In this document: piece after piece, positions 6,046-32,105 of the stretch
Layout: the number at the start of each line of letters is the position of its first letter
Numbering within the stretch: the stretch's first letter is position 1
Assembly (NCBI RefSeq): GCF_014279595.1
Contig: NZ_CP047943.1
Location: 1,550,001 to 1,614,000, forward strand
DNA: 64,000 nt
Direction: 5' to 3'
Origin: Synechococcus sp. RS9909
GTDB taxonomy: Bacteria > Cyanobacteriota > Cyanobacteriia > PCC-6307 > Cyanobiaceae
The notes under the pieces: generated by a model
What the model saw: only the letters and a program-made list of their open reading frames with translations
What the model was told of the DNA's origin: nothing
Database searches by the model: none
Program-made: the position numbers and the translations under genes

Positions 6046-6085
6046 GGGTCAGGGCCGGCGCTGACGGGCTCGGCGTTGGCCCACT

Positions 6086-10131: not shown

Positions 10132-11074
10132 GACGCTGCTGGGACCAGAGCATGAGCAGGGAGGGCGCCAGGGCAATGCTTGACCAACTGCCCACCACCA
10201 CCCCCACCGCCAGGGCGATGGCAAACCAGTAGAGCGTGGCGCCACCGAAAAGGATCAATGCCAGGAGAGGCAACAGGGTGGTGCCACTCGTATAAAGCGT
10301 GCGGGTGAGGGTGGCATTCACCGCAATGTCGACCTGCTCCGGCAGGGAGAGCGCCTCATCGAACCGCTGCCGCTCGCGAATCCGATCGAACACCACCACG
10401 GTGTCATTCACCGAATAGCCCGCAATCGTGAGCAGGGCCACGGCGAACAGGCTGTCAACCTCCAGGGAGATCAACAGACCCAGCCAGGCGAACAGGCCAC
10501 ACACGATCACCACATCGTGGGCCAGGGCCACCAGGGCGAGGAAGGCATAGCGGCGGTCGTAGCGCACGCTGATGTAGGCCGAAATCCCGATGAAGGCCAC
10601 CGCCAGGGAGATCAGGCTGCTGCGCAGCAGCTGACTGCCGAGGGTCGGGCCGATCGTATCGACCGCTTCGCCACCGGCTTGAAACGGTCCAGCCACAGGC
10701 TGGAGTGCCTGAATCAGCGCCTGCCCCTGGGCGGCCGTGAGCGTGGGCAACCTCAACACCAGCGACTGGCCGCGATCGAGCAACTGCAGCCGCGCCGAGG
10801 CGAGATCGGGAGCCGCGGTGCCGTCCTGCTCAGGTAGGGAGAGCTTGGCGAGGCTGGCCTGCACCTCGGAGACCCGCAAGTCGGAGCAGGTGGCGCCACA
10901 GGCGCGTTCCAGTTGAATCTGGGTGCCGCCCGTGAAGTCGAGGCCGGGGCGGAGCGGCGCCTGAATCGAGGGATTGGTCCAGCAGAGCAGCAGACCGAGG
11001 AGGCTGATCAGCAGCACCAGCAACGACACCCACCAGACGCGGCGACGAAGACGACTGAGAGGAAAAACGACCAT
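10121..11074 (-). CDS. secF: Protein translocase subunit SecF
   Basis: This is a 317-residue RND-type membrane protein that works with SecD to pull exported proteins through SecYEG using proton motive force. It has a first membrane helix, then the periplasmic P4-like region, then five helices carrying the SecF signatures (VALAHDVVIVCGLFAWLGL; GYSVNDTVVVFDRIRE). It lies 3 nt downstream of secD on the same strand. Length is normal. Confidence 0.96.
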   Translation of the reverse strand: MVVFPLSRLRRRVWWVSLLVLLISLLGLLLCWTNPSIQAPLRPGLDFTGGTQIQLERACGATCSDLRVSEVQASLAKLSLPEQDGTAAPDLASARLQLLDRGQSLVLRLPTLTAAQGQALIQALQPVAGPFQAGGEAVDTIGPTLGSQLLRSSLISLAVAFIGISAYISVRYDRRYAFLALVALAHDVVIVCGLFAWLGLLISLEVDSLFAVALLTIAGYSVNDTVVVFDRIRERQRFDEALSLPEQVDIAVNATLTRTLYTSGTTLLPLLALILFGGATLYWFAIALAVGVVVGSWSSIALAPSLLMLWSQQRRGA

Positions 11075-11077
11075 GGC

Positions 11078-12577: not shown

Positions 12578-12580
12578 GAA

Positions 12581-13564
12581 TCAGAGCCCCTTGCGCACGA
12601 TCTGCATCGCCGCCTCAACGATCTGATGGGGCTGGATGATGGTGAGATTCTCCAGGGTGCCGTTGTAGGGCGTGGGGATGTCCTGGCTGGACAACCGCAG
12701 GGGCCGGGCATCCAGGTCGTCGAAACAGTGCTCCGTGATCAGAGCGATCAGCTCGGCGCCGATCCCACCGGTTTTCATGCACTCCTCCACCACGATCACG
12801 CGGTGGGTCTTGCGGATCGATCGGGCGATCGTGTCCATATCGAATGGCTTGAGGCTGATCAGATCGATCAGTTCGGCGCTGATGCCATCGGCCTCAAGTT
12901 GCTCCACGGCTTTCAGGCAGTGATGACGCATGCGGGAATAGGTGAGGATCGTGATATCCGATCCCTCCTGCACCAAATCGGCCTGATCGAGCGCACAGGT
13001 GTACTCGCCGGCCGGCAGTTCTTCGCTGAGGTTGTACAGCAACACATGCTCGAAGAACAACACCGGGTTGTTGTCGCGAATGGCGGCCTTCATCAGGCCC
13101 TTGGCATTCGTGGGCGTGCTGCAAGCCACGATCTTGATGCCGGGCACCGCATGGAAATAGGCCTCGAGCCGTTGGCTGTGCTCGGCACCCAACTGCCGGC
13201 CCACCCCACCGGGACCACGCACCACGGTGGGAATGGTGAAGTTGCCGCCACTGGTGTAACGGAGCATCCCCATGTTGTTGGAGATCTGGTTGAAGGCCAG
13301 GAGCAGGAACCCCATGTTCATGCCCTCCACGATCGGGCGCAGCCCCGTCATCGCCGCACCCACTGCCATGCCGGTGAAGCTGTTTTCCGCGATCGGGGTG
13401 TCCAGCACCCGCAACTCGCCGTACTTCTCGTAGAGATCCTTGGTGACCTTGTAGGAACCGCCGTAATGACCGACGTCCTCACCCATCACGCAGACATGGG
13501 GATCACGGGCCATCTCCTCGTCGATGGCTTCACGGAGTGCATTGAAAAGGAGCGTCCCTGCCAC
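12581..13564 (-). CDS. pdhB: Pyruvate dehydrogenase E1 component, beta subunit
   Basis: This 327-residue transketolase-like subunit pairs with PdhA to decarboxylate pyruvate with thiamine diphosphate, feeding acetyl-CoA into lipid and TCA metabolism. Visible features are [15 protein letters not shown], the [20 protein letters not shown] dimer and cofactor region, and the C-terminal transketolase domain ([23 protein letters not shown]). The start codon is GTG at 13564 ([13 protein letters not shown]), at the family start. pdhA is not in the window. Confidence 0.96.
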
Positions 13565-13626
13565 GGCGTTGCTGTCGGTCCGGCCAGGCCGGCGTCAGCG
13601 GCCAAGCTATCTCAGTCCGGTCAGGC

Positions 13627-13722
13627 TCAACCGCCGGCGGCAAAGGTGGTGAGCAGCAGCACCGACAGGAGCAATCCTGGTGAGAGCAGCAGCACCAGTT
13701 GACCGAGGTCATGCAGCGTCAT
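13627..13722 (-). CDS. 31-residue single-helix membrane peptide
   Basis: This is a very short gene. A strong ribosome site (AGGGGAG about 9 nt upstream of ATG 13722) precedes a 31-codon frame with one membrane helix (LGQLVLLLSPGLLLSVLLLTTF). The size and build resemble the low-molecular-mass subunits of PSI, PSII, cytochrome b6f or NDH-1. It matches none of PetG, PetL, PetM, PetN, PsbM, PsbX or PsaM as I remember them. It lies 62 nt upstream of pdhB on the same strand. Confidence 0.5.
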   Translation of the reverse strand: MTLHDLGQLVLLLSPGLLLSVLLLTTFAAGG

Positions 13723-13760
13723 GGCAGCCACTCCCCTGAGTGCATCGCATTGGTTGGACC

Positions 13761-14072
13761 CTAGGCAGGGTCGGCGGGCCGGCCTGTGAAAAGACTGCGA
13801 AGAAACACCAGCGCCAGGCCGAGGCCGATGAAGGCAAAGCTGAAGGTGGCGACAAAACACATGCCGGTCAGCAGGGTCTTGAGCGCCGAAGCAATGCTCT
13901 GGGCAATCGCCGAGCTGTAGTGGGGTGGATGCTCCGCGAAATAGAGCACCATGCGCTTGCTCAGACCAAGGCTGAGCCAGGCCAGCAGCAGGCTCGTGAG
14001 GGATCCGGAGAGAAAACTGAGCGGCCCTTTGCGCCGCGCGTCGACCGGGGGGGTGCTGTTGGTGTCACTCAT
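13761..14072 (-). CDS. DUF3082 membrane protein
   Basis: This is a 103-residue protein with two membrane helices ([37 protein letters not shown]) separated by a conserved [21 protein letters not shown] linker. This is the pattern of the DUF3082 family shared by cyanobacteria and plastids. No function is established. ATG at 14072 overlaps the ispE stop by 4 nt, so it is the last gene of an rsmA-ispE-DUF3082 operon. Confidence 0.82.
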
Positions 14073-15016
14073 GCCAACAGCTTGGCCCCATGGCCGAGAA
14101 AGGAACAACTCCAGGCCTCCAGCCCGGCGGCCTGAAACTGCGGCATCCCCTGCTCCAGGGCCCCGTCGGCCTGGGGTCGCCCCGGAAACAGGGCGAAGCA
14201 ACTCGGCCCCGACCCGCTCATCGCCACCCGCAGCTGGCCAGGAAGCGCCTGCAACAGCTTGAGGGCTGTTTGCACTGCCGGCGTCTGCGGCGCCACCACA
14301 TCCTGGAGGTCATTGCGCAGTGGCGGTGGCGGTGGCGAAGCGGCCTGGGCCAACGGCAACCAGGAAGCCTGCCGCAGGGCGGAGCGCCGTTGCTCAAACG
14401 CCGCTTCTCCTTCGAGGTAGGAGGCACCACGCAGGCGACGGCATTCGCCGTAGGCCCATGGCGTTGACACGCTGACGCCGGGATCTTTCACCAGCACAAT
14501 CCCCAAAGGCTCGGACGCCTCAGCCGCAGCGGGCAAGGGCTCGAGGCGTTCGCCTCGACCGAAGCACAGCTGGGTACCTCCCGACACGCAAAAGGGCATG
14601 TCGGAGCCCAGCTCGGCAGCCATCCGCTCCAGATCGGCCTGCGAGTGCCCCAGTCCCCAGAGCGTGTTCAGGGCCACGAGGGTGGCCGCTCCATCACTGG
14701 AACCACCGGCCAAGCCCGCACCGATGGGAATCCGCTTGCGCAGATGAAGGCGTGCCCCCAGCTCGGCAAAGCCTGAGCGTTGTCGCAGCAGCTCAGCGGC
14801 GCGAAGGATCAGGTTGTCGGCACCGCAACTGAGCTCAGGCCGATCGCAGCTGAGCTGGAGTGAGGCATCGGCGGTGTTCTCGCAGAGCAGTTCATCGGCC
14901 AGGTCGATGCTCTGCATCACCATCGCCAGTTCATGAAAACCGTCGGGTCGCAACCCGAGCACCTCCAGATGGAGATTGATCTTGGCGGGAGCGCTGACGC
15001 GAACCGTGGCCGTCAT
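14069..15016 (-). CDS. ispE: 4-diphosphocytidyl-2-C-methyl-D-erythritol kinase
   Basis: This is a 315-residue GHMP kinase that phosphorylates CDP-ME in the MEP isoprenoid pathway, supplying chlorophyll phytol tails, carotenoids and quinones. The GHMP ATP loop is [16 protein letters not shown], and the N-terminal substrate motif is [23 protein letters not shown]. It overlaps rsmA upstream and the DUF3082 gene downstream by 4 nt each. The rsmA-ispE pairing is widespread in bacteria. Confidence 0.95.
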
Positions 15017-18925: not shown

Positions 18926-19234
18926 ATGAGCAACGCAGCTGCCACCACGATCCGCCAGCGGCTGGACGCCCTGAAACCACAGGTGTTGGCGGTGGCCACC
19001 AGCCATGGCGCCTCCAACCTCAGGATCTATGGATCCATCGCCACGGGCCGGGAACACCCCGCCAGCGATCTCGACTTGCTGGTCGACCTGCCTGAGGAGC
19101 AGTCCCTGCTGGGCCTGATCAGCCTGCGTCAGGACCTGGAAGACCTCCTGGGCTGCTCCGTGGACGTAACGGAAGCAGAGACCCTGCATCCCCTGATTCG
19201 CACTCAGATCCTGGAGCAAGCCCTGGCCCTGTGA
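18926..19234 (+). CDS. MNT-domain nucleotidyltransferase antitoxin
   Basis: This is a 102-residue minimal nucleotidyltransferase with the signature GS-x11-D-x-D (IYGSIATGREHPASDLDLLVDL; Asp48 and Asp50). In the HepT/MntA systems such proteins neutralise a HEPN RNase by adding AMP to a tyrosine of the toxin. It overlaps the following HEPN gene by 4 nt, which is the standard arrangement. The MNT itself looks intact, although its partner is not. Confidence 0.87.
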   Translation: MSNAAATTIRQRLDALKPQVLAVATSHGASNLRIYGSIATGREHPASDLDLLVDLPEEQSLLGLISLRQDLEDLLGCSVDVTEAETLHPLIRTQILEQALAL

Positions 19235-19557
19235 ACAAGGACCGCCTCTATCTCGAAAGCATTCGCGACTGCCTGGAGCGCATCGCCGAGTACACCGCTC
19301 CAGGGGAGCAGGCTTTCCTGACTTCGCGGCTGATCCAGGACGGCGTGATCCGCAACCTGGAGGTGAATCTCGCCAGGGTCTGGCGCACCGTGATCACGGA
19401 TCTACCGCCGCTTACGATGCCCGCCCCGAGCTGGAATTCCTCTGGGATCTGTATCCAGTGGTGGATTGGCTCGCCGATCGCGGCCAGATCACCTTCCCCC
19501 GCCATTGCGCCCCGGTACTCCACCTCTCAGAAGGGCTGGATCCTGGTGAGGCGGTGA
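19231..19557 (+). pseudogene. HEPN (HepT/DUF86) toxin with catalytic segment deleted
   Basis: The first 45 codons match HepT (KDRLYLESIRDCLERIAEYT ... VIRNLEV). The sequence then jumps directly to NLARVWRTVITDLPPL, which is the C-terminal helix of the same family. The segment that normally lies between them, including the R-x4-6-H RNase motif (roughly 35-40 residues), is absent. The junction is in frame, near 19365. After about 19409 the frame runs out of phase over a helicase fragment, giving a meaningless tail. The product can hardly be an active toxin. Confidence 0.72.
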
Positions 19558-20066
19558 TGGTGCTGCAGGGAACAATTCCCAACCAGAAAGGCATGCCTGT
19601 GGTGCAGGAATGGGTGGCGGTGCGCTTCGCCGGCAGTGGACTCAGGGTGATGGCGGTGGAGCCCTTTGAAACGGTGGCCGAACGGCTGCAGCTTGGCCGC
19701 AAGGCCTATGCCAATCCCGGTGCACCAATCCCGGAATCGCTGAAACAACAGCGCCAGGTGGCGGTGGATGCCGCGCACCGCTATCTGGTGCAGAAGCAGG
19801 AGGCCTGGAGTGCTCGGATGAAACCCGAACTGGAAGCCCAACGGGAGCGACTCAGGCAGCTGCGGGGTCGACAGCAAGAACAACTGCAGCTGGCTTACGA
19901 GAGCAGCCAGCGCCCTCAGCAGGTCAAAGAGAAACAACGCATCGCCGACCAGAGCCGGATCGATCGCCGCTTTGACGACCACGAACGGTTCATGCAAGAG
20001 GTGATGACGATCGAACCCGCCCCCTACTTGAAGTTGGTGGCCGTGCTGCACCGCGACAGCAGTTGA
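19410..20066 (+). pseudogene. C-terminal relic of a SNF2-like helicase
   Basis: A 218-codon frame begins without a start codon at AYDARPELEFLWDLYPVVDWL and ends KLVAVLHRDSS. The closing coiled segment (RRFDDHERFMQEVMTIEPAP) and the VMVLQGTIPNQKGMPVVQEW block resemble the region after helicase domain 2 in large SNF2/RapA-like proteins, some of them in DISARM-type defence loci. No helicase motif survives. An ATG at 19458 could still give a 202-residue protein. I regard it as a 5'-truncated remnant fused behind the broken HEPN gene; the family assignment is moderate. Confidence 0.5.
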
Positions 20067-20128
20067 GCACCCGTTGCGTCAGAGACCTCAATAGCGTTCC
20101 AACACTGCCCATCCGAAACCACCTCACC

Positions 20129-20359
20129 ATGAGCTCATCCACTTCCCTGATCACCTGCACACCAGGCGTGCGTAGCGGCAAAGCCTGCGTGGCTGGCACA
20201 CGAATCAGCGTCTCAGATGTACTCGAGTACCTCGCCAGTGGCATGAGCCAAGAGGAGATCCTGGCGGACTTCCCCGATCTGCGACCAGAGCACATCCAGG
20301 CCGTGTTGCGCTACGCCGCCGATCGTGAAAAGCGGCTCAGCGAAGTCACCGTGGCCTGA
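20129..20359 (+). CDS. DUF433 antitoxin
   Basis: This is a 76-residue DUF433 (VapB-like) protein. It has the typical pattern RSGKACVAGTRISVSDVLEYLASGMS-QEEILADFPDL, a DNA-binding helix-turn-helix fold. It normally pairs with a downstream DUF5615 PIN-like protein, which is present 8 nt after the stop. ATG 20129 matches the family start; the longer frame from 20063 overlaps the helicase relic. Confidence 0.88.
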   Translation: MSSSTSLITCTPGVRSGKACVAGTRISVSDVLEYLASGMSQEEILADFPDLRPEHIQAVLRYAADREKRLSEVTVA

Positions 20360-20367
20360 ACGAAACA

Positions 20368-20712
20368 ATGAGGGGCCGTTTTCTGCTGGATGAGAATCTG
20401 AGCCCTCGGCTCGCTGCGGCGCTCTCGGAGTTGTTTCCAGGCAGCGTGCATGTGCGGGATGTTCAGTTAAGGGGCCAAAGCGATGAGCGGATCTGGGCCT
20501 TTGCAGCCGAAGGCGGCTACGCGATCGTCACCAAAGACGATGACTTTCGCGGCATGAGCCTGCTGCGCGGTGCGCCGCCGAAGGTGATCTGGCTGGTGGT
20601 GGGTAACACCAGCACAGCGGAGATCCTGCGCATCCTGCTCGCTCACACCACGGCCATCAAGACCTTCATCGCCGAACCGGTCACTTCTCTACTCACGCTG
20701 CGCAAGCCTTGA
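20368..20712 (+). CDS. DUF5615 PIN-like toxin
   Basis: This is a 114-residue Mut7-C/PIN-like RNase-fold protein. It has the N-terminal acidic motif FLLDENLSPRLA (Asp8, Glu9), VHVRDVQLRGQSDERIW and the KDDDF motif, which together form the acidic metal site. It is the probable toxin partner of the DUF433 protein. Both genes look complete, so this module may be active. It ends 16 nt before the left end of the IS3 relic. Confidence 0.85.
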   Translation: MRGRFLLDENLSPRLAAALSELFPGSVHVRDVQLRGQSDERIWAFAAEGGYAIVTKDDDFRGMSLLRGAPPKVIWLVVGNTSTAEILRILLAHTTAIKTFIAEPVTSLLTLRKP

Positions 20713-20772: not shown

Positions 20773-21090
20773 CTGACCACCAGACTGTGGTTCACGACGC
20801 AGCAGAAAGCCGAGGCCGTGGAGCTCTGCCTGCAGGAGGGCCTCTCCTGCAATGCCGTCGCTGAGCGGCTTGGGCTTCCCTCCAGCAGCCTGGCCCGCTG
20901 GGTGCGTCAGGCCCGCATCGACCGCGGTCAGGCCGGACCCCGTGATCAGGGCCTGCTCACCAGCGAGGAGCGCGCTGAACTCAACCGGCTCCGCAAGGAA
21001 AACCGTGAGCTCAGGAGGGAGAAGGATTTTTTCAGGCTGGCGGCAGCGCACTTTGCGAAAGAGCAGCTGCCGCCGAGAGGTTTCGCCTGA
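20773..21090 (+). CDS. IS3 transposase OrfA (helix-turn-helix)
   Basis: This frame of about 105 codons starts at an uncertain CTG (20773); GTG 20818 is the next option. It carries the IS3 OrfA pattern: [37 protein letters not shown] (HTH) followed by a leucine zipper ([29 protein letters not shown]). The lack of a normal start codon suggests decay. OrfB follows in the -1 frame, as usual for this family. Confidence 0.7.
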
Positions 21091-21533
21091 TCGACCAGCT
21101 GGCCGCTCAGCACTCGGTCTCCTGGCTGTGCCGCCAGCTTGGGGTGGCCCGCAGTGGCTTCTACGCCTGGCGGCGCATCTGGAGTCGCGGAGAACTTGCT
21201 GCAGCAGGACTTCGCTGCTGGGCGGGCGACATCACCTATATCCGCACCACGGCGGGCTGGCGGTATCTGGCGGTGTGGATCGATCTGTTCAGTCGCCGCG
21301 TCGTCGGCTGGACGCTCGCTCCGCGGATGGATGCGACCCTGGTGATTGAGGCCCTCAACCGAGCCCTCGGCCAGCGGCATTTGGAGCCCGAGCAGCTGCA
21401 ACGGGATCTGGCCTTCTGGATCGAGGGCTACTACAACCGCGAGCGTCGTCACTCAACGATCGATTACCTCAGTCCAATCGACTACGAACAGCAGTTCATC
21501 ACTGCTCGTACATTCTCACCTGTGAACCCCTGA
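21081..21533 (+). pseudogene. IS3 transposase OrfB with two in-frame deletions
   Basis: About 150 codons remain of a normal 270-300. The frame starts [20 protein letters not shown] and passes FYAWRR. It then jumps to [25 protein letters not shown], which holds the first catalytic Asp. It jumps again at [20 protein letters not shown], and the ending [18 protein letters not shown] is intact. Both joins keep the reading frame. The blocks that should carry the second Asp (HSDQGSQY-like) and the Glu (ESFF-like) are gone, so no transposase activity is possible. Confidence 0.75.
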
Positions 21534-21685: not shown

Positions 21686-21985
21686 ATGGCCACCCTCACG
21701 ATCCGCAACCTCGACGAAGCCGTGCGCGATCGGCTTCGGCGTCGCGCCGCCGAGGACGGCCATTCGATGGAGGAAGAGGTGCGCCAGATTCTCAGGCAGC
21801 TGATCAGGGCCCCCAGGGCCTGGTGGCAGGCGCTGGAACAAGAAGGCCACAGCAATCCCTGGCTCCTCGGCAAACAAACGAACGCCGACTACGCCGCCGC
21901 CAGTGCAGCGTTTGCACAATGGGTGGAGTTCATCCACCAGGCCACGCTTTACAACGACGAGATTAGCGGCATTGCAGTCGCTTGA
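21686..21985 (+). CDS. FitA-like ribbon-helix-helix antitoxin, partner missing
   Basis: This is a 99-residue protein whose first half is a classic Arc/MetJ antitoxin: ATLTIRNLDEAVRDRLRRRAAEDGHSMEEEVRQILR. The C-terminal half (PRAWWQALEQ...AAASAAFAQWVEFIHQ) is unlike the short toxin-neck of FitA and has no recognised match. The expected PIN toxin gene downstream is absent; the convergent helicase gene begins 36 nt later. It is either an orphan antitoxin or one with a replaced neutralising region. Confidence 0.75.
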   Translation: MATLTIRNLDEAVRDRLRRRAAEDGHSMEEEVRQILRQLIRAPRAWWQALEQEGHSNPWLLGKQTNADYAAASAAFAQWVEFIHQATLYNDEISGIAVA

Positions 21986-22021: not shown

Positions 22022-25000
22022 TCAAATCGCCACACTCATCATCGGCAACCACGCCGCCGGGATCTCTCGCTCCAACCGCCAGCGAATTGCCATCGGGCGC
22101 TCACCCTCGTGACTCTCGTAGACGGCAAAGCCCAGACACGCAAAAGGCTCGGTGATAAGGCCCTGTTTTCGTTGCTCCCGCGCAAAGAGCAACACCCGTG
22201 AACCACCACTCACGTATCGCTGGCCTGTCGGAGAGGAAGCCGTGGTGGTGCTTTGACTTTCCCAGTGGAAAAGGCGTGGGCCGAGGGCCAGGTCGCGGTA
22301 ACGGGTGGACGGGGAGAAAAGGGCCTCGCTCTTTTTGAGGGTCACGAACAGCAGGTCACACCGGCTGGGTTCATGCCAGAGCACGCCTTCACGGTGAATC
22401 CACGGTGCGTCATCACTGAGGACGCCAAAAGCCGCTTCGATTTCGGCACGGCTGTAGTGACCATGCACGCGAAGCGGCACTGGTAGCGCCCAAGGAAGTG
22501 GGTGCAGGCGGTGATCGGCCCTGGCGGCAAGGAAGACAAGCAGCTGGCGCAGTTCGTCGCGCCAGGCGGCGGCTTGCCAGAGCACAGCCAGAGCGTCGGG
22601 AAGCGGACGCCACTGGCGGCCTGTACCGAACAGCTGAGCCGTGAGCATCAACCACTCACGGCGCTCGCGTTCTCCCATGGTGAGCGGATCCGGCGGGGCA
22701 GGTTCAGAAAGGGCGGCGGCGAGGGTGAGCAGACGATCAGGATCGTCGCCATGCAGCAGGCCGGTACCGATGGAGCGGCTGAGGCGTTCTTCCTCCGGAT
22801 GGGGCCCATCGCACAGCCAGCCCAGCTCACGGCGCAGGGCGGTGAATGAGACGCCGCGGATCCCGTAGAAGTCGACCGGATCCATCGCGAGCGCCTCGAG
22901 CCAATCGGCGAGACCGCTGGCGGCCGTGATCTTTCCCTCAGCCGCAAGGGCGCGGAGCTCCTCGAGGATCTGAGGGCGTCGGCTGGGTAGGCACTGGCGC
23001 AGATTGGCCAGCACCCGCTCACTTGCCACGCGATCCAGGACCAACCGGCAGCCCGGGGGGAGGAATGGAAAGTCCTGAACCAGCTGCTGCTGCAGTTGGC
23101 GCCGGCTGCAGCCAAGCAAGGCGCGATAGCGCAGGTCGAACCGGAAGCGGCGGTGCTGCTGGCCGATGAAGTCGAGCACCGTGAGACAACTCTTGCCGGT
23201 TTCTGGCGAAAGACGCAAACCACGACCGAGCTGCTGCAGGAACACCACGGCACTCTCAGTGGGGCGCAGCAGCAGCACGGTGTCGATCGAGGGGATGTCG
23301 AGTCCCTCGTTGAACAGATCCACCGCAAAGAGGATCTGCAGCTCACCAGCGTGCAGGCGGCGCAAGGCCTCTCGGCGCTCGTCGCTGGGGGTGGAGGCGT
23401 CGAGGGCCTCGGCCTGGAGGCCAACGGCACGGAAGCGCTCAGCCATGAAGCGGGCATGCTCCACACTCACGCAGAAGCCCAGAGCGCGCATCCGCCGAGG
23501 CTCAGCGACCGCCTTCTCCAGTTCGCTGAGGATCAGCGCGACGCGACGATGGTCGCCGGTGTAGAGGGTGCTGAGCTCAGCGGGCACATAACCACCCCGG
23601 CGCCACTCCAGGGAGGAGAGGTCCGTGGCGTCAGCGACGGCGAAGTAATGGAAAGGCGCGAGCAAGCCCTGATCGAGGGCGGTCCAGAGACGCAGCTCCG
23701 CAGCGATACGACCGCCAAACCAACGGAGGACGTCGAGCCCGTCGGCGCGCTCGGGGGTAGCGGTGAGGCCAAGCAGCAGCTGGGGGCGCAAGTGGTCGAG
23801 CCAGCGGCGATAGCTCAAGGCAGCCGCGTGGTGGAACTCATCCACGATCACCACGGCGAAGCGATCAGCAGGGATCTCGGCCAGATCGCGCTGGGCGAGA
23901 GACTGGACAGAGGCAAACACATGCCGCCACTGGCGCGGCAGTTCGCCATCCACATAGAGCTCACCGAAGGCCGGGTCGCGCAACACCTGGCGGAATGTGG
24001 CCAGGGCCTGCTGCAGGATTTCCTTGCGGTGAGCGATCAACAGCAGCGGCGGCGGATCGGCTGCGGGGAACCGCTCAGGGAAATCGCTGTGCAGGCGGGC
24101 CACGTCGAACGCGGCCAGCACCGTCTTGCCAGTACCCGTGGCAGCGACAACCAGGTTGTGCCAGCGGTCATGGACCGTGCGCTCGGCCGCCAGGGCTTCG
24201 AGCATCTCGCGCTGGTAGGCGTAGGGCCGCAGGTTGAACCACGCCAGCGCCGAATCTTCCCTGACTTCATCCACGCCCCGGGCCACAGCGAGCTGGTGAT
24301 CGATACGAGCCTGTTGATCTGGCGTTGCGGCATAGGACTCGAATTCGCCCTCCTCCCAGTAGGCGTCAAAGGTGGACTGAAACTTGGCCACCATGGCCGG
24401 CGTCTCCAGGGCAGCCAGGCGCACGTTCCACTCCAGCCCGTCGAGTAGGGCTGCAGAGGAGAGGTTTGAGGAGCCGATGTAGGCCGTGCTGGTTCCACTC
24501 GCACGATGAAAGTGCCAAGCCTTGGCATGGAGCCGGGTGCGGCGAGTGTCGGTACTGACCCGCACGTCGGCGCCATGCTCCACAAGCCAGTCGAGTGCTT
24601 TGCGATCGGTAGCGCCGAGATAGGTGGTCGTGAGCACCCGTAGGGATCGTCCGGTCCCCAGGTACTGGGCGAGCACCGGCTGCAGCAACCGCAGGCCACT
24701 CCACTTGATGAAGGCGCAAAGCAGATCGATGCGGTCGGCAGAGGGCACTTCTGCCTGCAAGGCCAGCCCCACACTGGGCTCGCTGGGGGCATTGATCAGC
24801 AGGGTGCCATCGGCCAGGGGGATGAGGGGCCGGACCAAGGGGGCCTCGTTTGGCAGTAACGGCGTAACTCGCAGTTCCTGCAGCAAGCGAGCGCTTGGGT
24901 GCAGGAGATCTCCCGAGCCGATGGCAGAGCTGTGCTGCTGGAGTAACCCAACGATCTGGTTTACCAGGGCCAGTTGCTGCTGTTGCCGCTGGGCCTCAGG

Positions 25001-25180
25001 TAATGAGGCCAGAGCTATCTCACTCAGCTGGCGCAAGTACCGGGCCAGGCGCTGGGGCGCTTCGGCGGGATCCAGGGGTTGGAGGTAGTGGAAGGATTCC
25101 TGCTGGCCGGCAAGGAGCTGGTCAATCGTTGCACTGAGGGGGTGGTCGTAGAGGCCGGGAGGGAACGTTTGCTCATGCAT
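22022..25180 (-). CDS. PLD-nuclease/SF2-helicase/DUF3427-like defence protein
   Basis: This is a 1052-residue multidomain protein. Residues 1-120 are a helical head. Residues 125-260 form a phospholipase-D-type nuclease domain with H218-x-K220 and GSSNLSS (about 236-242). Residues 320-690 form a superfamily 2 helicase: TGTGKT (348-353), VDEFHH (446-451), GLTATPER (471-478) and a motif VI QLGRGLRLS. Residues 700-1050 are a DUF3427-like tail with VSGGSRVLLFARE and HYWESQST-type elements. It overlaps the stop of the preceding gene by one base, so it is translationally coupled. Proteins of this build are found in defence islands; the activity is presumably nucleic-acid cleavage coupled to translocation, which is inference. 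Confidence 0.85.
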   Translation of the reverse strand: MHEQTFPPGLYDHPLSATIDQLLAGQQESFHYLQPLDPAEAPQRLARYLRQLSEIALASLPEAQRQQQQLALVNQIVGLLQQHSSAIGSGDLLHPSARLLQELRVTPLLPNEAPLVRPLIPLADGTLLINAPSEPSVGLALQAEVPSADRIDLLCAFIKWSGLRLLQPVLAQYLGTGRSLRVLTTTYLGATDRKALDWLVEHGADVRVSTDTRRTRLHAKAWHFHRASGTSTAYIGSSNLSSAALLDGLEWNVRLAALETPAMVAKFQSTFDAYWEEGEFESYAATPDQQARIDHQLAVARGVDEVREDSALAWFNLRPYAYQREMLEALAAERTVHDRWHNLVVAATGTGKTVLAAFDVARLHSDFPERFPAADPPPLLLIAHRKEILQQALATFRQVLRDPAFGELYVDGELPRQWRHVFASVQSLAQRDLAEIPADRFAVVIVDEFHHAAALSYRRWLDHLRPQLLLGLTATPERADGLDVLRWFGGRIAAELRLWTALDQGLLAPFHYFAVADATDLSSLEWRRGGYVPAELSTLYTGDHRRVALILSELEKAVAEPRRMRALGFCVSVEHARFMAERFRAVGLQAEALDASTPSDERREALRRLHAGELQILFAVDLFNEGLDIPSIDTVLLLRPTESAVVFLQQLGRGLRLSPETGKSCLTVLDFIGQQHRRFRFDLRYRALLGCSRRQLQQQLVQDFPFLPPGCRLVLDRVASERVLANLRQCLPSRRPQILEELRALAAEGKITAASGLADWLEALAMDPVDFYGIRGVSFTALRRELGWLCDGPHPEEERLSRSIGTGLLHGDDPDRLLTLAAALSEPAPPDPLTMGERERREWLMLTAQLFGTGRQWRPLPDALAVLWQAAAWRDELRQLLVFLAARADHRLHPLPWALPVPLRVHGHYSRAEIEAAFGVLSDDAPWIHREGVLWHEPSRCDLLFVTLKKSEALFSPSTRYRDLALGPRLFHWESQSTTTASSPTGQRYVSGGSRVLLFAREQRKQGLITEPFACLGFAVYESHEGERPMAIRWRLEREIPAAWLPMMSVAI

Positions 25181-27045
25181 CAGGGATCAGTGGTCTTCTC
25201 TGAGATCTGCTTGAGCCACGCACCTAGCTCAGTGTCACACGCAAACACCCAGCAGGCCTTTGTTCCCCGGCTCATCAACGTTCGGTATGTGTTGCGGATG
25301 ATCGCGTCTGCCTTTAACCGGATCGCCTGGGGGTCACGCTTCAGGCCCACTTTGTATCCCTTCAGCGACTGATCCGTGCGCGCACGCGCCGTAGGAACCG
25401 TCACCACCTGGCCATCCCGGTAAGCCAGATCTGGCCCGATGATCACACCGATCGTTTCCAGCTCCAGGCCCTGGCAGGTGTGGATGCAGCCCACCTCCTC
25501 CACCGTGCCTGGCTTCATGATCCAAACGCTGCCGTCTTTGCTCAGGTTCCAGCGGGCCCTGTAGCCCCAGGGCTCGATCGTGATGTCCCAGGCGTTGGGG
25601 TGGTATTTCGAGGCCCAGTTCCAGCAGTAACCCGCCACCATCCGTGCCTGGTTGGCGTGGTTGGCCTGACGGATCGCCTCGTGCAGCTCCACCGGATCGT
25701 CAAACACCCTGAAGTCGTAGCCGGCGGGGTCCAGCTGCTCGTTGGCCGTGGCCCGAATCCCCAGGGTGGAATCGAGCCAGGCCAGGTAGCCATCGGAGCC
25801 GCAGCAGCGGAACTGCGAGGGCAGCACGTCGCGGTGGAGCTCGGCCTCGTGGAACTGACTCCACTTTTCGATCTCGGCCGTACTCCCAATGTCGTCGAAA
25901 GTGACGCGCTGGTCTTCATCGAGGAAAAACACCGCCAGCTTGCTGGCATGGATGATCTCCTTGACCTGGTTCTCGCCCTGCTTGTCATAGATGGTCTTGG
26001 TCATCAGCCGATGGCTTTCATCCACGATCAAGGCGTCGTAGAAGCCCTCCGGACAGCCAACGAAGCAGGCCGAGCCACAGAAGAGGTTGTCGTATTCTCC
26101 CTTCTGCAGAGAACCGGTGAGCTTGGCACGGTACACAGCCCGTGGCGCCGCGTTCTTGCTTACGTAACGGGCATTCAGGCCCATGCCCAGTAGCCGGGCC
26201 AGCAGGTTCACCGCCAACACCGATTTGCCTGTTCCGGGCCCGCCCCGCACGAGCAGCACACAGTGCCTTCCTTTTTGTAGCCGCCGTGCCAGGGCTAGCG
26301 CCTTTTCGTACACCACCTTCTGGTCGTCGATCAGCACGAACTCGACGTTGCCCTTCAGCATCCGCTCCACCGCGTCGGCCAACTGTTGGCTCGGCTTTGG
26401 CTTTCCGTCGCGGATCCGCTCGATTGTGTGGCCCCGATCGCCAACTACCAGACAGCGCCGCAAGAAGGCCGCCATGGCTGCGTTGTCGTGTCGCAGGAAC
26501 ACCGGTGCCTGATCGATGTATGGGCGATAGCGGGCATCGGTGATGCCACTGCCATCCGTGCAGTTGTGTAGGTAAGCGCAGGGTTGCAGAGCAATCCTGT
26601 GCTCAACCACCGCTGTATTGAATCCCCGTAGGAGCTGCCCGTAGCTCATGGCCTGATACGAAGGATGAATGGTCTCGCGCGGACCCTTTCCGAGGAAAGT
26701 TCGTACCACCCCATCCAGCTCAGTGGGCTCCACTGATTCCCACTGCTTCAGTTCCACGATTACCGCAGCTGGAGCGCCAGAAGCATCACAGCCTGAGAGC
26801 AGCAGATCAATACGCTTCGCTGTGTTGTGGATGCGGTATTCGATCGCCACACCCAGCTCGGATGGGACCTCCTCGAACTGCAATACGTTTCCAACGCACT
26901 GAAGTGAGTTCTTCCAGGATCGAAACTCGTTCGCGGCGACTTTGTGGCCTGTCATCGCGATGTAGCGATCCCGCACCTCCTCCTCGATGCGCTGCTCCCG
27001 CACGTGCTTCAGGAAGCATTCCCGAGTTGCGAGATAAATGATCAC
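25180..27045 (-). CDS. PD-(D/E)XK nuclease-DUF2075 ATPase (helicase-like)
   Basis: This is a 621-residue protein. The N-terminal domain (about 1-150) has a PD-(D/E)XK-type core with Asp80 (KRIDLLLSG) and E98-x-K100 (VIVELKQW). The DUF2075/Schlafen-like P-loop ATPase has LLVRGGPGTGKSVLAV (Walker A 268-275), IVDESHRL (Walker B) and FFLDEDQRVTFDDIG, and a C-terminal QGLELETIGVIIGPDL helicase motif. I prefer GTG 27045, which gives MIIYLATRECF, the usual start of this family; the frame remains open to 27069. It is the second gene of a three-gene minus-strand cassette. Related ATPases occur in several bacterial immunity loci, but I know no named system with these exact partners. Confidence 0.8.
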   Translation of the reverse strand: MIIYLATRECFLKHVREQRIEEEVRDRYIAMTGHKVAANEFRSWKNSLQCVGNVLQFEEVPSELGVAIEYRIHNTAKRIDLLLSGCDASGAPAAVIVELKQWESVEPTELDGVVRTFLGKGPRETIHPSYQAMSYGQLLRGFNTAVVEHRIALQPCAYLHNCTDGSGITDARYRPYIDQAPVFLRHDNAAMAAFLRRCLVVGDRGHTIERIRDGKPKPSQQLADAVERMLKGNVEFVLIDDQKVVYEKALALARRLQKGRHCVLLVRGGPGTGKSVLAVNLLARLLGMGLNARYVSKNAAPRAVYRAKLTGSLQKGEYDNLFCGSACFVGCPEGFYDALIVDESHRLMTKTIYDKQGENQVKEIIHASKLAVFFLDEDQRVTFDDIGSTAEIEKWSQFHEAELHRDVLPSQFRCCGSDGYLAWLDSTLGIRATANEQLDPAGYDFRVFDDPVELHEAIRQANHANQARMVAGYCWNWASKYHPNAWDITIEPWGYRARWNLSKDGSVWIMKPGTVEEVGCIHTCQGLELETIGVIIGPDLAYRDGQVVTVPTARARTDQSLKGYKVGLKRDPQAIRLKADAIIRNTYRTLMSRGTKACWVFACDTELGAWLKQISEKTTDP

Positions 27046-27175
27046 GAAAGTAACGGGCTGGATGGACACACCTAAAGGGATTCTGGCTGCATCTGATTGT
27101 CGGGACTGCAGTTCGCAGCTGGGTACAGATGAGCTTCAGGATTGAGGACTGGATTAATGGAACGCTGATCTGACA

Positions 27176-28177
27176 TCAATACCTCTGCCTCTGCGAAATC
27201 ACCCCCCTCACACCACCCCGCGGGTCAGGCATGTCGCCCTTGCGCCTCGGGATCAGATGCCAGTGGGCATGCATCACCGTCTGCCCCGCCGACTCACCAC
27301 TGTTCAGGCCGATGTTGAAACCGCTGATGGAGGCATCCGCCAGCTCAAGATCCTGCCGCCGCTGCTTGAGGAGTGCAGTGACGGCATTCCACTCGGGCTG
27401 ATGCAGCTCCATCCCATCCGCCACATGCCGGCAGGGGATCACCAGGCTGTGGCCTTCGGTGACGGGGTAGGCATCGGCGATGCAGACCGCCAGTTCGTTC
27501 CTGAGAAGCACCCGGTCTGAAGTCTGCAGTTCACAGAAGAGGCATCCCTCCTGCCTGTGGCCGTAGCTCTGCAGAACCCCGCGGAAGTCGGTGCTGTCGC
27601 TGTCCCGCTTGCCGGCGTTGCAACGGAAGCAGAGCGCCTGGAAGTTGGAGATGTCATCGGAACCACCGTGGTTCTTCGGGATGATGTGATCCACCTCCAG
27701 CGCCGCCTGGTGCTCATGGGCACCGCAGCATTCACAGCGGCCCTTCGCGCGGGTGAACACCCGATAGCGGATCGATCCGCTGATGGCCGTGCGATGGCGT
27801 GAGCGATGGGCGAAAACCTCGTCGCCGCGCTTCAGACGAAAGGCATCGAGCTTCTCCCGACAGAGCTGCAGCAGTGCATCCCGCTCGATCTCGCTGAGGT
27901 CGTCCACGCCGATCAGGCTGTAGACGCCTCCGGCATGGGACGTGATGCCGTTGGAGGTCATCACCCGCCCCACCATCCGTTTCACACGTTCGGTGTAGTA
28001 CTCGATCTGGGAGCTGTCCTCGCCGAGGATCCGCCGGGCGATGTCTTCTGCGGGTGCAGGGCTGCTTCTTCCGAGCAGCTCCATCAGCATCAGTGGCTGA
28101 TAGATGTACGACATGCGCATCCGCCGATTGATGTACTCGGCGAGTCGGTCGTAGGCACTTGATCGAGCAGGCTCCAT
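27176..28177 (-). CDS. HNH endonuclease-HIT hydrolase fusion
   Basis: This is a 333-residue protein with three parts. Residues 1-130 are a helical and winged-helix-like head (MRMSYIYQPLMLMELL, AEDIARRILGEDSSQIEYYT). Residues 145-190 are an HNH nuclease with four zinc cysteines (CECC at 148-151, CFRC at 183-186) and VDHIIPKNHGG. Residues 212-333 are a HIT domain with CLFC at its start and the triad H303-A-H305-W-H307. HIT enzymes cleave nucleotide phosphoanhydrides or phosphoramidates. All catalytic residues of both domains are present. It is the first gene of the cassette; upstream (28178-28260) is relatively AT-rich with a TAAGAT -10-like hexamer. The downstream gap to the ATPase gene is about 130 nt. 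Confidence 0.85.
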   Translation of the reverse strand: MEPARSSAYDRLAEYINRRMRMSYIYQPLMLMELLGRSSPAPAEDIARRILGEDSSQIEYYTERVKRMVGRVMTSNGITSHAGGVYSLIGVDDLSEIERDALLQLCREKLDAFRLKRGDEVFAHRSRHRTAISGSIRYRVFTRAKGRCECCGAHEHQAALEVDHIIPKNHGGSDDISNFQALCFRCNAGKRDSDSTDFRGVLQSYGHRQEGCLFCELQTSDRVLLRNELAVCIADAYPVTEGHSLVIPCRHVADGMELHQPEWNAVTALLKQRRQDLELADASISGFNIGLNSGESAGQTVMHAHWHLIPRRKGDMPDPRGGVRGVISQRQRY

Positions 28178-28421: not shown

Positions 28422-28733
28422 GTGGTCGCATCGGCGGAGCGAGGCATAGCAGAAGCAGTCACAAGCCAGGTTGCGGTGCGGGACCTCAAGACCCACCTCT
28501 CCGAATGGCTCGGCCGGGTGCAGGCCGGTGAGGTGGTGGAAGTGACTTCACACCGCAAACCGATCGCCCGGATCATGACCGTGAAGCAAGCGGACTCAGA
28601 GATCAGCAGCCCGATGCAAAAGGCGATTGATGCTGGTGTGATCAGCTGGAGCGGTCAGAAGCCCAATCAGAGCAGCTGCGGCAGAACAGCACCACAGTTG
28701 ATGCCATCGGGGTCTGCCCTCCAGCGTGTTTGA
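28422..28733 (+). CDS. Phd/YefM-family antitoxin, C-terminally altered, orphan
   Basis: This 103-residue frame begins at GTG 28422 (the next start is uncertain). The core VAVRDLKTHLSEWLGRVQAGEVVEVTSHRKPIARI is a textbook Phd fold. KAIDAGVISWSGQKP is the usual linker to the toxin-binding tail, but the tail that follows (NQSSCGRTAPQLMPSGS) does not resemble the normal ending (a short hydrophobic ED-rich peptide). A frameshift near 28660 is probable. No PIN toxin follows, since the TacAT operator begins 10 nt after the stop. It is likely a decaying antitoxin. Confidence 0.68.
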   Translation: MVASAERGIAEAVTSQVAVRDLKTHLSEWLGRVQAGEVVEVTSHRKPIARIMTVKQADSEISSPMQKAIDAGVISWSGQKPNQSSCGRTAPQLMPSGSALQRV

Positions 28734-28842: not shown

Positions 28843-29115
28843 ATGGCTGCGACTCCTCGCCTCAGCTGGAACCTGCGGGTGTCACCCGGGGATCAAGACC
28901 TGATCGATCGAGCTGTGCGGGCTTCGGGGCTCACCCGAACCGACTTTGTGCTGCAGGCGGCGCGGGCTGCAGCACAGAACCTTCTCGTGGAGCAGACCTG
29001 GTCTGTCTTGGAGCCCCAGGCCTTTGAGACCTTCCGCCGCCAGCTCGATGCCCCTGCTGGTCCGAATGAGCGGCTGCAGCGCACGATGGCCGCATCCAGG
29101 CCCTGGAAGGCCTGA
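28843..29115 (+). CDS. TacA-like DUF1778 antitoxin
   Basis: This is a 90-residue ribbon-helix-helix protein of the DUF1778 family. It has RLSWNLRVSPGDQDLIDRAVRASGLTRTDFVLQAA (RHH) and a C-terminal neutralising tail with the conserved FETFRRQLDAPAGPNERL segment. It shares its last base with the start of the acetyltransferase gene. It is expected to bind the upstream palindromes and to mask the toxin. Both parts look intact. Confidence 0.9.
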   Translation: MAATPRLSWNLRVSPGDQDLIDRAVRASGLTRTDFVLQAARAAAQNLLVEQTWSVLEPQAFETFRRQLDAPAGPNERLQRTMAASRPWKA

Positions 29116-29624
29116 TGGGGCTGCAAGCGCCGCAGCCTCTTGACGATCACCACGTCATGAAGGGGTTCGACTGCGGTGACCACACACTCAACCAGTGGCT
29201 GCAGCAGCGCGCCCTGGCCAATCAGCGCAGCGGCGCGACCCGCACAGTTGTGGTGTGTGACGCCGACCACGCGGTGAAGGCCTACGTCGCTCTGGCCTCA
29301 GGTGCTGTGGCGGTTGCCGCAAGCCCTGGCAGCTTTCGCCGCAACATGCCCGACCCGATCCCAGTGGTCGTTCTCGCTCGCCTGGCGGTCTGCCGCAGTG
29401 TGCAGGGGCAGGGCATCGCACGGGCCTTGCTGGCCGATGCCTTCGAGCGCGTACTCCTGACCAGTCAACAGATCGGCGTGCGGGGCATCGTGGTGCACGC
29501 TGCGGCAGCAGCAGCGCGAACCTTCTATCTCCACATGGGCTTCGACTCATCCCCCAGCGATCCGAGCCTGTTGCTCCTTCGGCTGAGCGATGTAGCCGCA
29601 GCCTTGGAAGCCTCAGCAAAATGA
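29115..29624 (+). CDS. TacT-like GNAT acetyltransferase toxin
   Basis: This is a 169-residue GNAT enzyme of the TacT/AtaT class, which blocks translation by acetylating the amino group of aminoacyl-tRNAs. It has the family start (FDCGDHTLNQWLQQRALANQ), the acetyl-CoA loop LARLAVCRSVQGQGIARALL and the late Tyr in RTFYLHMGFDSSPSDP. Gene order and overlap with TacA are canonical. It appears to be the best-preserved toxin in the island together with DUF5615. Confidence 0.9.
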   Translation: MGLQAPQPLDDHHVMKGFDCGDHTLNQWLQQRALANQRSGATRTVVVCDADHAVKAYVALASGAVAVAASPGSFRRNMPDPIPVVVLARLAVCRSVQGQGIARALLADAFERVLLTSQQIGVRGIVVHAAAAAARTFYLHMGFDSSPSDPSLLLLRLSDVAAALEASAK

Positions 29625-30342: not shown

Positions 30343-30367
30343 ATTGCAGTGCGTCGGATGGTCTCCC

Positions 30368-30811
30368 GTGGCGGTCGATCGCTGCTCTCTTCAGGCCGCG
30401 CTGCCCCTGCGGGCCCAGCGCCAGCCCCTGCTGCTGCCTCTGGCGGGCGAACGTGTCGCGGCGGGGTTCCCCTCACCCGCCGACGACTACGTGGAGGTGG
30501 GGATCGACCTCAATGAGCAGCTGATCCGCCATCCCCTCAGCACCTTCTTCCTGCGGGTGAGCGGTGAGTCGATGCTCGGCGCCGGCATCCACGACGGCGA
30601 CCTGCTGGTGGTGGACCGCAGCCTCGAACCCAGACCCGGCCGGGTGGTGGTGGCCGTGCTCGATGGCGCCTTCACCCTTAAACGCCTGGCCCGCCATCGC
30701 GGCCAGCTGCGTCTGGAAGCGGCCCATCCCGACTATCCGCCACTGGAGCTGCACCGCTGCGGTGATGTGCAGATCTGGGGCGTGGCGATCCATGTGATTC
30801 ACCCGCTCTGA
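30368..30811 (+). CDS. umuD: SOS mutagenesis protein UmuD (S24 peptidase)
   Basis: This 147-residue protein self-cleaves on the RecA filament to UmuD', a subunit of polymerase V. The cleavage Ala-Gly bond lies in RVAAGFPSPADDYVE. The nucleophile Ser is in SGESMLGAGIHDGDLLVVD, and the general-base Lys is in AFTLKRL. I chose GTG 30368 (MAVDRC); TTG 30344 would overlap the LexA box and is less likely. It is followed after 19 nt by umuC. Confidence 0.92.
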   Translation: MAVDRCSLQAALPLRAQRQPLLLPLAGERVAAGFPSPADDYVEVGIDLNEQLIRHPLSTFFLRVSGESMLGAGIHDGDLLVVDRSLEPRPGRVVVAVLDGAFTLKRLARHRGQLRLEAAHPDYPPLELHRCGDVQIWGVAIHVIHPL

Positions 30812-30830
30812 ATCCTCAGAACGCAGCGCC

Positions 30831-32105
30831 ATGCCTGCCGCCACGGCCCTGATTGATGCCAACAATTTCTATGCCTCCTGCGAGCAGAGCCTCGATCCCT
30901 CCCTGATCGGCCGACCGGTGGTGGTGCTCTCCAACAACGACGGCTGCATCGTTGCCCGCAGCGCCGAAGCCCGGGCCATGGGCATCGCCATGGGCACGCC
31001 ATTCTTCAAGGCGAAACGGGACCTGGAACGCCATGGCGTGGTGGTGCGCAGCTCCAACTACGCCCTCTACGCCGACATGAGCCAGCGGCTGATGAGCCTG
31101 TTGGAGCGGGAGGTGGAGGAGCTCGAGATCTATTCGATCGACGAGGCCTTCGCCTGCGTACGCCGGCCGGCCGGCGGCGACCTGCTGCCCTGGGGCCGGC
31201 GCTTGCGCGCCCTCACCCGGCGCGACCTGGGGCTGCCGATCGCCATCGGTCTGGGCGCCAGCAAGGGGCAGGCCAAACTCGCCAACCGCCTGGCCAAGGT
31301 GGTGCCGGCCCATGCCGGCCTGTTCGACCTGACGCGGTGCAGCGACCCCGACCACTGGCTGGAAACGATCGCGATCGAGGATGTGTGGGGAATCGGCCGC
31401 CAATTGGCCCACTGGTGTCGGGCGCGGGGGGTGACCCACGCCCGGGCACTGCGCGACATGCCCAGCGGCGTCCTGCGGGCCAAAGCGGGGGTGGTGGGCA
31501 TGCGGCTGCAGCGAGAGCTGCAGGGTCACAGCTGCCTGCCGCTGGAGCTGACGCCCGCACCGAAGCGGGAAACCTGTGTGAGCCGCAGCTTCAGCCGACC
31601 CATCACCAGCCTGGAGGAGCTGCGCGAAGCGGTGGCCACCTACGTGGTGCGCGCCGCCGAAAAATTACGCCAGCAGCATCAGCGCGCCGCCGCCCTCAGC
31701 GTCTACACCCGCACCAGTCCGTTCGTCCCCGATTTCTACAGCAACACCGCCAGCACCCGTCTGGACCTGCCCAGCAACGACACCCAGGCCCTGCTCAACG
31801 CCGCTTTACCGCTGGTGGAGCGGATCTTTCAGCCGCACCGCCAGCTCGCCAAAGCCGGCGTGTTGATGCAGCACCTGCAAAGCACCGACCAGCTGCAACA
31901 TCATCTGCTGGTGCCCTGCAGCGCCGCCGAGCAACAGCGGCGCGAGACGCTGATGGCCACGATCGATCGGCTCAACCGACGCTACGGGCGCGGCACCGTG
32001 CAGTGGGCCGCCTGTGGCCTGGATCCGAGCTGGGCGATGCGGCGGGAACGGCTGGGCCGGGCCGCCACGACCCGGCTGCGTGATGTGCCGATCGTGCAGG
32101 CCTGA
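30831..32105 (+). CDS. umuC: Y-family DNA polymerase V catalytic subunit UmuC
   Basis: This is a 424-residue translesion polymerase. It has the N-terminal metal motif ALIDANNFYASCE, the steric-gate region, SIDEAF (catalytic Asp and Glu), an HhH-like segment in the thumb (DVWGIGRQLAHW) and the little-finger domain. Length matches UmuC. The operon is probably induced by DNA damage through the LexA box at 30329. Confidence 0.95.
   Translation: MPAATALIDANNFYASCEQSLDPSLIGRPVVVLSNNDGCIVARSAEARAMGIAMGTPFFKAKRDLERHGVVVRSSNYALYADMSQRLMSLLEREVEELEIYSIDEAFACVRRPAGGDLLPWGRRLRALTRRDLGLPIAIGLGASKGQAKLANRLAKVVPAHAGLFDLTRCSDPDHWLETIAIEDVWGIGRQLAHWCRARGVTHARALRDMPSGVLRAKAGVVGMRLQRELQGHSCLPLELTPAPKRETCVSRSFSRPITSLEELREAVATYVVRAAEKLRQQHQRAAALSVYTRTSPFVPDFYSNTASTRLDLPSNDTQALLNAALPLVERIFQPHRQLAKAGVLMQHLQSTDQLQHHLLVPCSAAEQQRRETLMATIDRLNRRYGRGTVQWAACGLDPSWAMRRERLGRAATTRLRDVPIVQA

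Follow-up and report, generated by a model that had tools for sequence, protein, structure and literature searches.

An exchangeable cassette bounded by HNH-HIT and SauUSI-type genes in Synechococcus sp. RS9909 and its relatives, with a probable history of nested replacement

A stretch of 64,000 nucleotides from Synechococcus sp. RS9909 (contig NZ_CP047943.1, positions 1,550,001 to 1,614,000; the window) carries three adjacent minus-strand genes: A, encoding an HNH-HIT fusion, B, encoding an SLFN-g3/DUF2075 ATPase with a PD-(D/E)XK-like motif, and C, encoding a PLD-SF2-DUF3427 protein. A reading of the sequence alone (the sequence-only reading) had proposed these genes as an undescribed three-gene defence system. 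Comparison with relatives showed the unit to be modular, a cassette with A and C at its ends, and a fixed trio acting as a dedicated system is not supported. The three genes in the window probably represent one generation of an exchangeable anti-phage cassette, laid out as A head, payload and C tail, with a history of nested replacement. The domains, the intactness and the defence context put forward for the trio held, and its conservation as a dedicated unit did not. The genes and the block of DNA that contains them are listed below (aa, amino acids; bp, base pairs); left and right follow the reading direction of A.

27176..28177, minus strand: A, winged-helix-like/HNH/HIT protein, left-hand (head) gene; 333 aa; 94% identical copy in genome G132
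25180..27069, minus strand: B, PD-(D/E)XK-like motif and SLFN-g3/DUF2075 ATPase, payload gene; 629 aa from GTG
22022..25180, minus strand: C, SauUSI-like type IV restriction enzyme, right-hand (tail) gene; 1052 aa
21869..28217, minus strand: DNA block common to the window and G132, from 40 bp before A to 153 bp past the stop of C; 90% identity

The A and C bracket and its exchangeable middle

The open reading frames (ORFs) of A, B and C lie in the order and at the positions previously given for them, with B and C sharing one base (25180), and all three are intact and under purifying selection relative to G132. The ratio of nonsynonymous to synonymous substitution rates (dN/dS) was 0.11 for A, 0.09 for B and 0.13 for C, the values for B and C resting on the single pair of the window genome (G000) and G132; over 55 pairs of intact A the median was 0.16.

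We searched 151 genomes of the window's family with cut-offs of E<=1e-15 for A, E<=1e-60 for B and E<=1e-100 for C. A occurred in 30 genomes, B in 8 and C in 27, and a full-length A without a stop was present in 7 of the 30 A-bearing genomes. The expectation that the trio would be conserved in unrelated genomes was not borne out: intact, adjacent A-B-C was found in 2 of the 151 family genomes, G000 and G132, both of one genus, the comparison outside the family covering plasmid regions. A and C occurred together in 22 genomes against 5.4 expected (Fisher p 2e-15), B and C in seven (p 2e-5) and A and B in seven (p 5e-5), all uncorrected for phylogeny and genome size. At the cut-offs used, G324, G426, G429 and G466 carried C without A and B.

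The position and polarity of A and C were constant. C stood downstream of A on the same strand in all 21 family genomes with both genes on one contig (counted by hand); in the 22nd genome, G119, the two lie on different contigs. Likewise, in 11 genome stretches all 37 A copies lay on the left-hand side of C or its stumps, with none to the right within the stretch and none reversed, and the copy numbers of A and C were correlated across these stretches (rho 0.62, p 0.04).

The middle of the cassette, surveyed for neighbouring ORFs of at least 150 aa, was exchangeable and contained mostly defence-type genes. Among 35 named loci, a gene for an HNH_2 protein (E) directly followed A in 12, with a gap of about 50-85 bp. 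A gene pair, J (DnaJ-like) and K (HNH-looking by eye, without a family match), directly followed A in L031 and L028 and as a remnant in L009. B stood directly after A or an A stump in five of seven loci (the window, G132, G496, G201 and G436, and not G473 or G414), a count that leaves out G370, where B is in pieces on two contigs. In G201, an A stump precedes B-C; in G496, A-B is followed by C at a distance of 8 kilobases (kb); and the order B-J-K...C was found in G473 and, with stumps, in G436. Other payloads included GmrSD (L019), an SLFN-g3 protein matching PADLOC PDC-S41 (L004, with a homologue in L011), SIR2-HerA (L031) and a Ppl-like ATPase (L028), with the payload of some loci lying on the other strand. 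In loci whose available sequence includes no C, the neighbours of A were a PDC-S37/Hhe-like helicase-nuclease (L023) and, together with an HNH gene, a DpdB-like protein (L034). Not every neighbour is a defence gene, as an alpha-amylase-type gene adjoins A in L013. In L035, a 1268-aa ORF (10919-14725, minus strand) between the A array and C gave no Pfam match at E<=0.01 and no NCBIfam match at E<=0.001.

The cassette appears to be mobile as a unit: the window and G132 have A-B-C in common together with short edges and not with flanks, and the flanking ORFs of the window gave a single match, at 23%, in 50 kb from G132. A single att-like chromosomal site is not supported, as 10 genomes gave only scattered weak matches to the window's flanking ORFs.

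Outside the family, plasmids, phages and viral contigs were examined. By tblastn at E<=1e-4, none of the 10 plasmid regions (of 20 records) that carry a B homologue contained A, and C was present only as a 26% helicase-only match (L134), while three plasmid regions with C (of 18 records) contained neither A nor B. The Hymenobacter plasmid NZ_CP114769.1 carries a B homologue and a partial C-like match (31%) about 12 kb apart on opposite strands.

Stacked remnants and the accounts of their origin

Remnants of the two end genes were stacked on the two sides of the cassette. We found 118 A copies in the 35 loci, all in the direction of the matched copy. Among 88 incomplete copies, 58 retained the 5' end alone, five the 3' end alone and 25 neither; in 21 of 27 multi-copy loci the most complete copy was the last (expected 8.0). 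The C copies were truncated in mirror image: of 27 incomplete copies, counted among matches of at least 38% identity outside L006, 21 retained the 3' end, one the 5' end, four the middle and one both ends, and all 14 incomplete copies on a contig with an intact C lay to the right of it. Because the outer parts of both end genes are kept and the inner parts lost, the pattern is the one expected if a new cassette lands inside an old one.

The nearest neighbour of an A copy was in another locus in 100 of 110 cases, and units of toxin-antitoxin genes plus A recurred across loci with up to 95% DNA identity, which argues against an origin of the arrays in recent local duplication; they may be old arrays that were inherited, or they may have been transferred.

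Toxin-antitoxin-type matches were present in 78 of the 83 gaps between A copies. In these left-hand spacers 126 of 148 such matches ran opposite to A and 22 along it. Names given by eye to the spacer families (clusters of at least four ORFs) included nucleotidyltransferase/HEPN, DUF1778/GNAT, HicB, DUF433/DUF5615, VapB, PIN, ParE and others; Pfam was applied to the window's own genes. Alignments of at least 120 bp between spacers of 150-6000 bp agreed in orientation in 381 of 381 cases, and the common leader upstream of A ended sharply near -50 or near -150.

Together, these observations point to serial nested replacement as the origin of the stacking. The cassette would consist of the head gene A, the tail gene C of SauUSI type and a swappable payload between them, here B. 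C would provide modification-dependent restriction, the cytosine mark being 5-methylcytosine (5mC) or 5-hydroxymethylcytosine (5hmC) in SauUSI, and B would act as a second ATP-driven nuclease. An incoming cassette would insert between the resident A and C, with removal of the resident middle. Successive replacements would thereby leave 5' stumps of former A heads piled up to the left and 3' stumps of former C tails to the right, interspersed with toxin-antitoxin modules. The driver may be any of three: uptake with illegitimate recombination, selection by the toxin-antitoxin arms or cutting by A.

Several points weigh against nested replacement. The window itself has one A, one C and no remnants, so that its own nesting is invisible, and among the genomes compared no before-and-after pair showing a replacement was caught. 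In six of the 27 multi-copy loci (L006, L017, L020, L033, L037 and L038) the most complete A was not the last copy. The prediction that age increases outward fared weakly in 12 loci, where stump length fell outward (p 0.038) and identity did not (p 0.33). Many A units have E behind them and no C within the available sequence. On the right-hand side, toxin-antitoxin-type matches ran along C in 15 cases and against it in 5, and those of the window run against C. Moreover, the contig pieces that make up most of the named loci have the best A copy at their centre, and this may favour its detection near an end; named loci and G genomes partly overlap (L006 is G496 and L004 is G358) and are not independent; and the C-stump count dropped the weaker C matches together with L006, which is the same record as G496.

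Other accounts explain part of these data. The HNH-HIT protein, B and C could work as one dedicated three-gene machine, as would fit the one-base overlap of B and C, the purifying selection on all three genes, the two genomes with intact A-B-C, the A remnant before B-C in G201, the place of B behind A or its stump in most B loci and the co-occurrence of B and C. However, we regard this as unlikely, since the intact arrangement was seen in only one genus of the family sample, A elsewhere precedes E or J-K, C occurs without the other two genes, the plasmid regions with B or with C do not have the remaining genes adjacent, and SauUSI works as a single polypeptide (PMC3874153). Tandem duplication and decay, in which a hot gene of a degenerate island was copied locally to give the A and C stumps, would account for head-to-tail copies in one orientation, but the nearest neighbours in other loci, the units recurring between loci and the mirrored 5' and 3' truncation of A and C are all unexpected from it, and we consider it very unlikely.

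Slightly less credit still is due to a superintegron-like array, in which toxin-antitoxin cassettes are captured by an integrase and the 5' end of A is the repeated recombination site. The islands do resemble superintegrons in their many oriented toxin-antitoxin cassettes behind a repeated sequence, and both the uniform orientation of the spacer alignments and the constant leader with its sharp ends are consistent with such capture. They differ from superintegrons, however, in their truncated-gene remnants, of varying stump length, and in a two-sided stack, with C stumps mirroring A stumps, as opposed to a one-sided array; moreover, no structured attC-like site was found in the class II leader, where 14 sequences gave no conserved fold and an unfavourable covariation term, and an Rfam search of eight loci gave no match. 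The persistence of A 5' stumps as promoter carriers for the divergent toxin-antitoxin module is the least likely account: most left-spacer matches are indeed divergent from A behind the constant leader, but those that run along A do not fit, and the C 3' stumps on the right and the fixed order of A left and C right are left unexplained. A promoter role of the A stumps may, on the other hand, act together with nesting. A more speculative form of nested replacement, which we hold to be improbable, makes the units self-displacing and gives A the (additional) part of a mobility nuclease: the HNH domain of an incoming A would open the resident cassette between A and C, the gap would be repaired by capture and the toxin-antitoxin arms would lock the new unit in, leaving the island as a concentric record of one anti-phage arsenal after another, with the oldest layer outside.

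Domains and predicted activities of the three proteins

The biochemical activities of A, B and C given here are predictions from their sequences. In C, Pfam detected ResIII/Helicase_C and DUF3427 (3e-13), with PLDc_2 (9.5e-6) just under its gathering score. Where the sequence-only reading had suggested a comparison with known defence-system models, C alone fits an existing one, the PADLOC type IV restriction model mREase_IV PDLC03659 (857 bits, E 4e-258). A profile of 18 C sequences matched SauUSI (7clg), the 5mC/5hmC-dependent type IV enzyme of Staphylococcus aureus, with E 1e-97 over SauUSI residues 31-916 of 953, and the aligned part takes in the PLD nuclease, the ATPase and the coupler and extends into the SRA reader. 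That the DUF3427 tail matches the SRA reader domain goes beyond the sequence-only reading.

24356..24652, minus strand: C residues 177-275, PLD nuclease; H218, K220 and N239 invariant in 18 homologues
23210..24232, minus strand: C residues 317-657, SF2 ATPase/translocase; G351-K352-T353 and D447-E448 invariant
22055..22576, minus strand: C residues 869-1042, DUF3427, aligned with the SauUSI SRA reader (Pfam and profile alignment)

The PLD, SF2 ATPase and C-terminal SRA of a SauUSI-type enzyme are all present in C, the SRA as judged by sequence only, and their order with the coupler is that of SauUSI. By homology C is a SauUSI-type type IV restriction enzyme, a known kind; it probably reads cytosine modification via the SRA, translocates on ATP and cuts via the PLD domain. 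In the literature, DUF3427 is predicted to bind modified DNA (PMC7159879), and the SRA domain of SauUSI is placed at residues 806-953 with Y831, F841, I842 and W868 named as pocket residues (PMC7913695). Read by hand off the alignment, F841 and W868 correspond to the invariant F945 and W973 of C, whereas Tyr-831 is replaced by Val-933 and Ile-842 by Val-946. A further difference from SauUSI is that C closes a cassette on its right-hand side and has toxin-antitoxin genes nearby.

The HNH and HIT domains of A were matched by Pfam with 9e-14 (PF01844) and 1e-15 (PF01230). In 17 aligned A sequences, the HNH residues C148, C151, D163, H164, N178, C183 and C186 are invariant, as are the three histidines of the HIT motif HxHxHxx (17 of 17). 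A winged-helix-like N-terminal domain is added here to the domains previously described; in the AlphaFold2 model, residues 1-110 fall in blocks with a predicted local distance difference test score (pLDDT) of 66-90, with 55 at residues 51-60, and the remainder is mostly below 50. The model gave no match in the PDB at E<=0.001 by Foldseek, the winged-helix call resting on this partial model and its winged-helix-like secondary structure.

27830..28177, minus strand: A residues 1-116, winged-helix-like N-terminal domain (AlphaFold2 model)
27605..27736, minus strand: A residues 148-191, HNH nuclease domain
27239..27526, minus strand: A residues 218-313, HIT nucleotide-hydrolase domain, with HxHxH at H303, H305 and H307

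A is probably a DNA nuclease, with a winged-helix-like domain for sensing a feature of the DNA and a HIT domain for hydrolysis of a nucleotide or nucleotide adduct. The wH-HNH type IV endonucleases dependent on N6-methyladenine (6mA; PMC11037411) join a winged-helix domain to an HNH nuclease, a layout that A, with its winged-helix-like domain, may share; A differs in its extra HIT domain. By analogy with the small MutT-like genes shown beside SauUSI homologues, according to a figure legend of the EVE paper (PMC7641849), and with the nucleotide pyrophosphohydrolase genes upstream of some plasmid B homologues, the HIT domain may have a nucleotide-cleaning role. The partner E, which is not in the window, has an HNH_2 domain as do the EVE/PUA-type HNH modification-dependent nucleases, while its EVE-like N-terminus was assigned by eye and has no family match.

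At E<=1e-40 A was found in 9 of 388 genomes of a class-wide sample, all nine in the window's family. Of the 35 named loci, 34 are cyanobacterial (many from Cyanobium and Synechococcus), and one is from Paradonghicola, which we take to be an alphaproteobacterium. A plasmid search with the window's A (E<=1e-20) gave four records, matched in the HIT part only; with the A homologue of L111, a plasmid search (E<=1e-30) gave no record and a phage search gave two records of one phage, again in the HIT part only. HNH-HIT relatives of 50-52% identity occur on IMG/VR contigs L108-L112 at about 6001-6990 (L109: 3792-4778), behind a DUF2924 gene and a serine recombinase (by Pfam in L108 and by look elsewhere, in pieces in L109). 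In L108, L109, L111 and L112 the relative precedes a small protein that looks GIY-YIG-like by eye, without a family match in L111.

Of 92 typed rows, 48 have a precise 40-bp deletion in A at a single site (after about codon 51), 40 lack it and four are unclear; carriers include L007, L015, L019, L020, L022-L024, L026-L031, L033-L035 and others. Copies with enough letters were typed, the rows include the window's A as well as the reference copy, which also has a locus row of its own, and doubt attaches to at least one row (L030_7163). A single origin was rejected, as a tree of 83 rows requires 16 changes, at least six of them forced by well-supported branches, against 28.0 with shuffled labels (0 of 500 as low). 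Recurrent loss and spread via recombination between copies are both possible.

B matched the SLFN-g3 helicase of DUF2075 type in Pfam (PF09848). The PD-(D/E)XK nuclease claimed for it is putative: E77, D88, E106 and K108 are invariant in seven proteins down to 23-24% identity, and no Pfam match supports the fold. The AlphaFold model of B (mean pLDDT 40) was too poor and was not used for the fold. The GTG at 27045 is probably the start, because the initial M of the relative L086 corresponds to V9.

26746..26841, minus strand: B residues 77-108, E..D..ExK motif, putative PD-(D/E)XK nuclease; invariant residues in seven sequences
25234..26262, minus strand: B residues 270-612, SLFN-g3 helicase domain (PF09848 1.1e-87)

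With its SLFN-g3 ATPase and PD-(D/E)XK-like motif, B resembles the SLFN-g3/DUF2075 nuclease-ATPases AbiO, Nhi and PDC-S41; it differs in that its PADLOC matches are partial and weak (AbiO 3.6e-8, PDC-S41 3.4e-7, Nhi 1.5e-6). A full-length Nhi or AbiO family match was not found in PADLOC, where only 151 and 159 residues around the ATPase align. On plasmids, a nucleotide pyrophosphohydrolase gene stands directly before the B homologue in L123 (4657-5004; archaeal), L124 (4393-5007; Bacteroidota) and L128 (4621-4950; Bacillota). As a constant partner of B it was rejected, being directly upstream in only three of nine annotated plasmid regions (a tenth region is unannotated).

Neighbourhood of the cassette and its meaning

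The description of the surroundings as broken or toxin-antitoxin DNA was confirmed. A scan of 10 neighbouring frames gave toxin-antitoxin-type genes and pieces of transposases, all of them on the plus strand, opposite to A-B-C.

28843..29624, plus strand: TacA-like antitoxin (28843-29115; PF08681 1.5e-19) and GNAT (29115-29624; PF13508 8e-9), toxin-antitoxin-type pair
28422..28733, plus strand: Phd/YefM antitoxin, divergent from A (PF02604 8e-8)
21686..21985, plus strand: FitA-like ribbon-helix-helix antitoxin, convergent with C (PF22513 1e-17)
20063..20712, plus strand: DUF433 (20063-20359) and DUF5615/PIN-like (20368-20712), toxin-antitoxin-type pair
18926..19557, plus strand: nucleotidyltransferase (18926-19234) and HepT-like frame (19231-19557, below gathering score), toxin-antitoxin-type pair

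To the right of C, between the toxin-antitoxin genes, the transposase pieces lie at 20818-21533 (plus strand), with helix-turn-helix (HTH) and rve parts in separate frames, and are of IS3 type by look. Genes that look UmuD/UmuC-like by eye lie at 30344-32105 (plus strand), immediately to the left of the toxin-antitoxin genes that flank A.

The usual picture of a defence island is that of a loose cluster of unrelated systems. The islands described here have a fixed grammar, with A as head, an exchangeable middle and C as tail, and keep the outer ends of former cassettes on both sides. A targeted search found no paper on an HNH-HIT fusion, and none appeared in the passages of the wider literature examined. 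The nested cassette island, rather than a fixed trio, is the finding worth following. If it is confirmed, an HNH-HIT fusion heading several nuclease modules would be a new kind of partner for type IV restriction, the order of defence-gene swaps would be readable from one genome, and in-place replacement would become testable.

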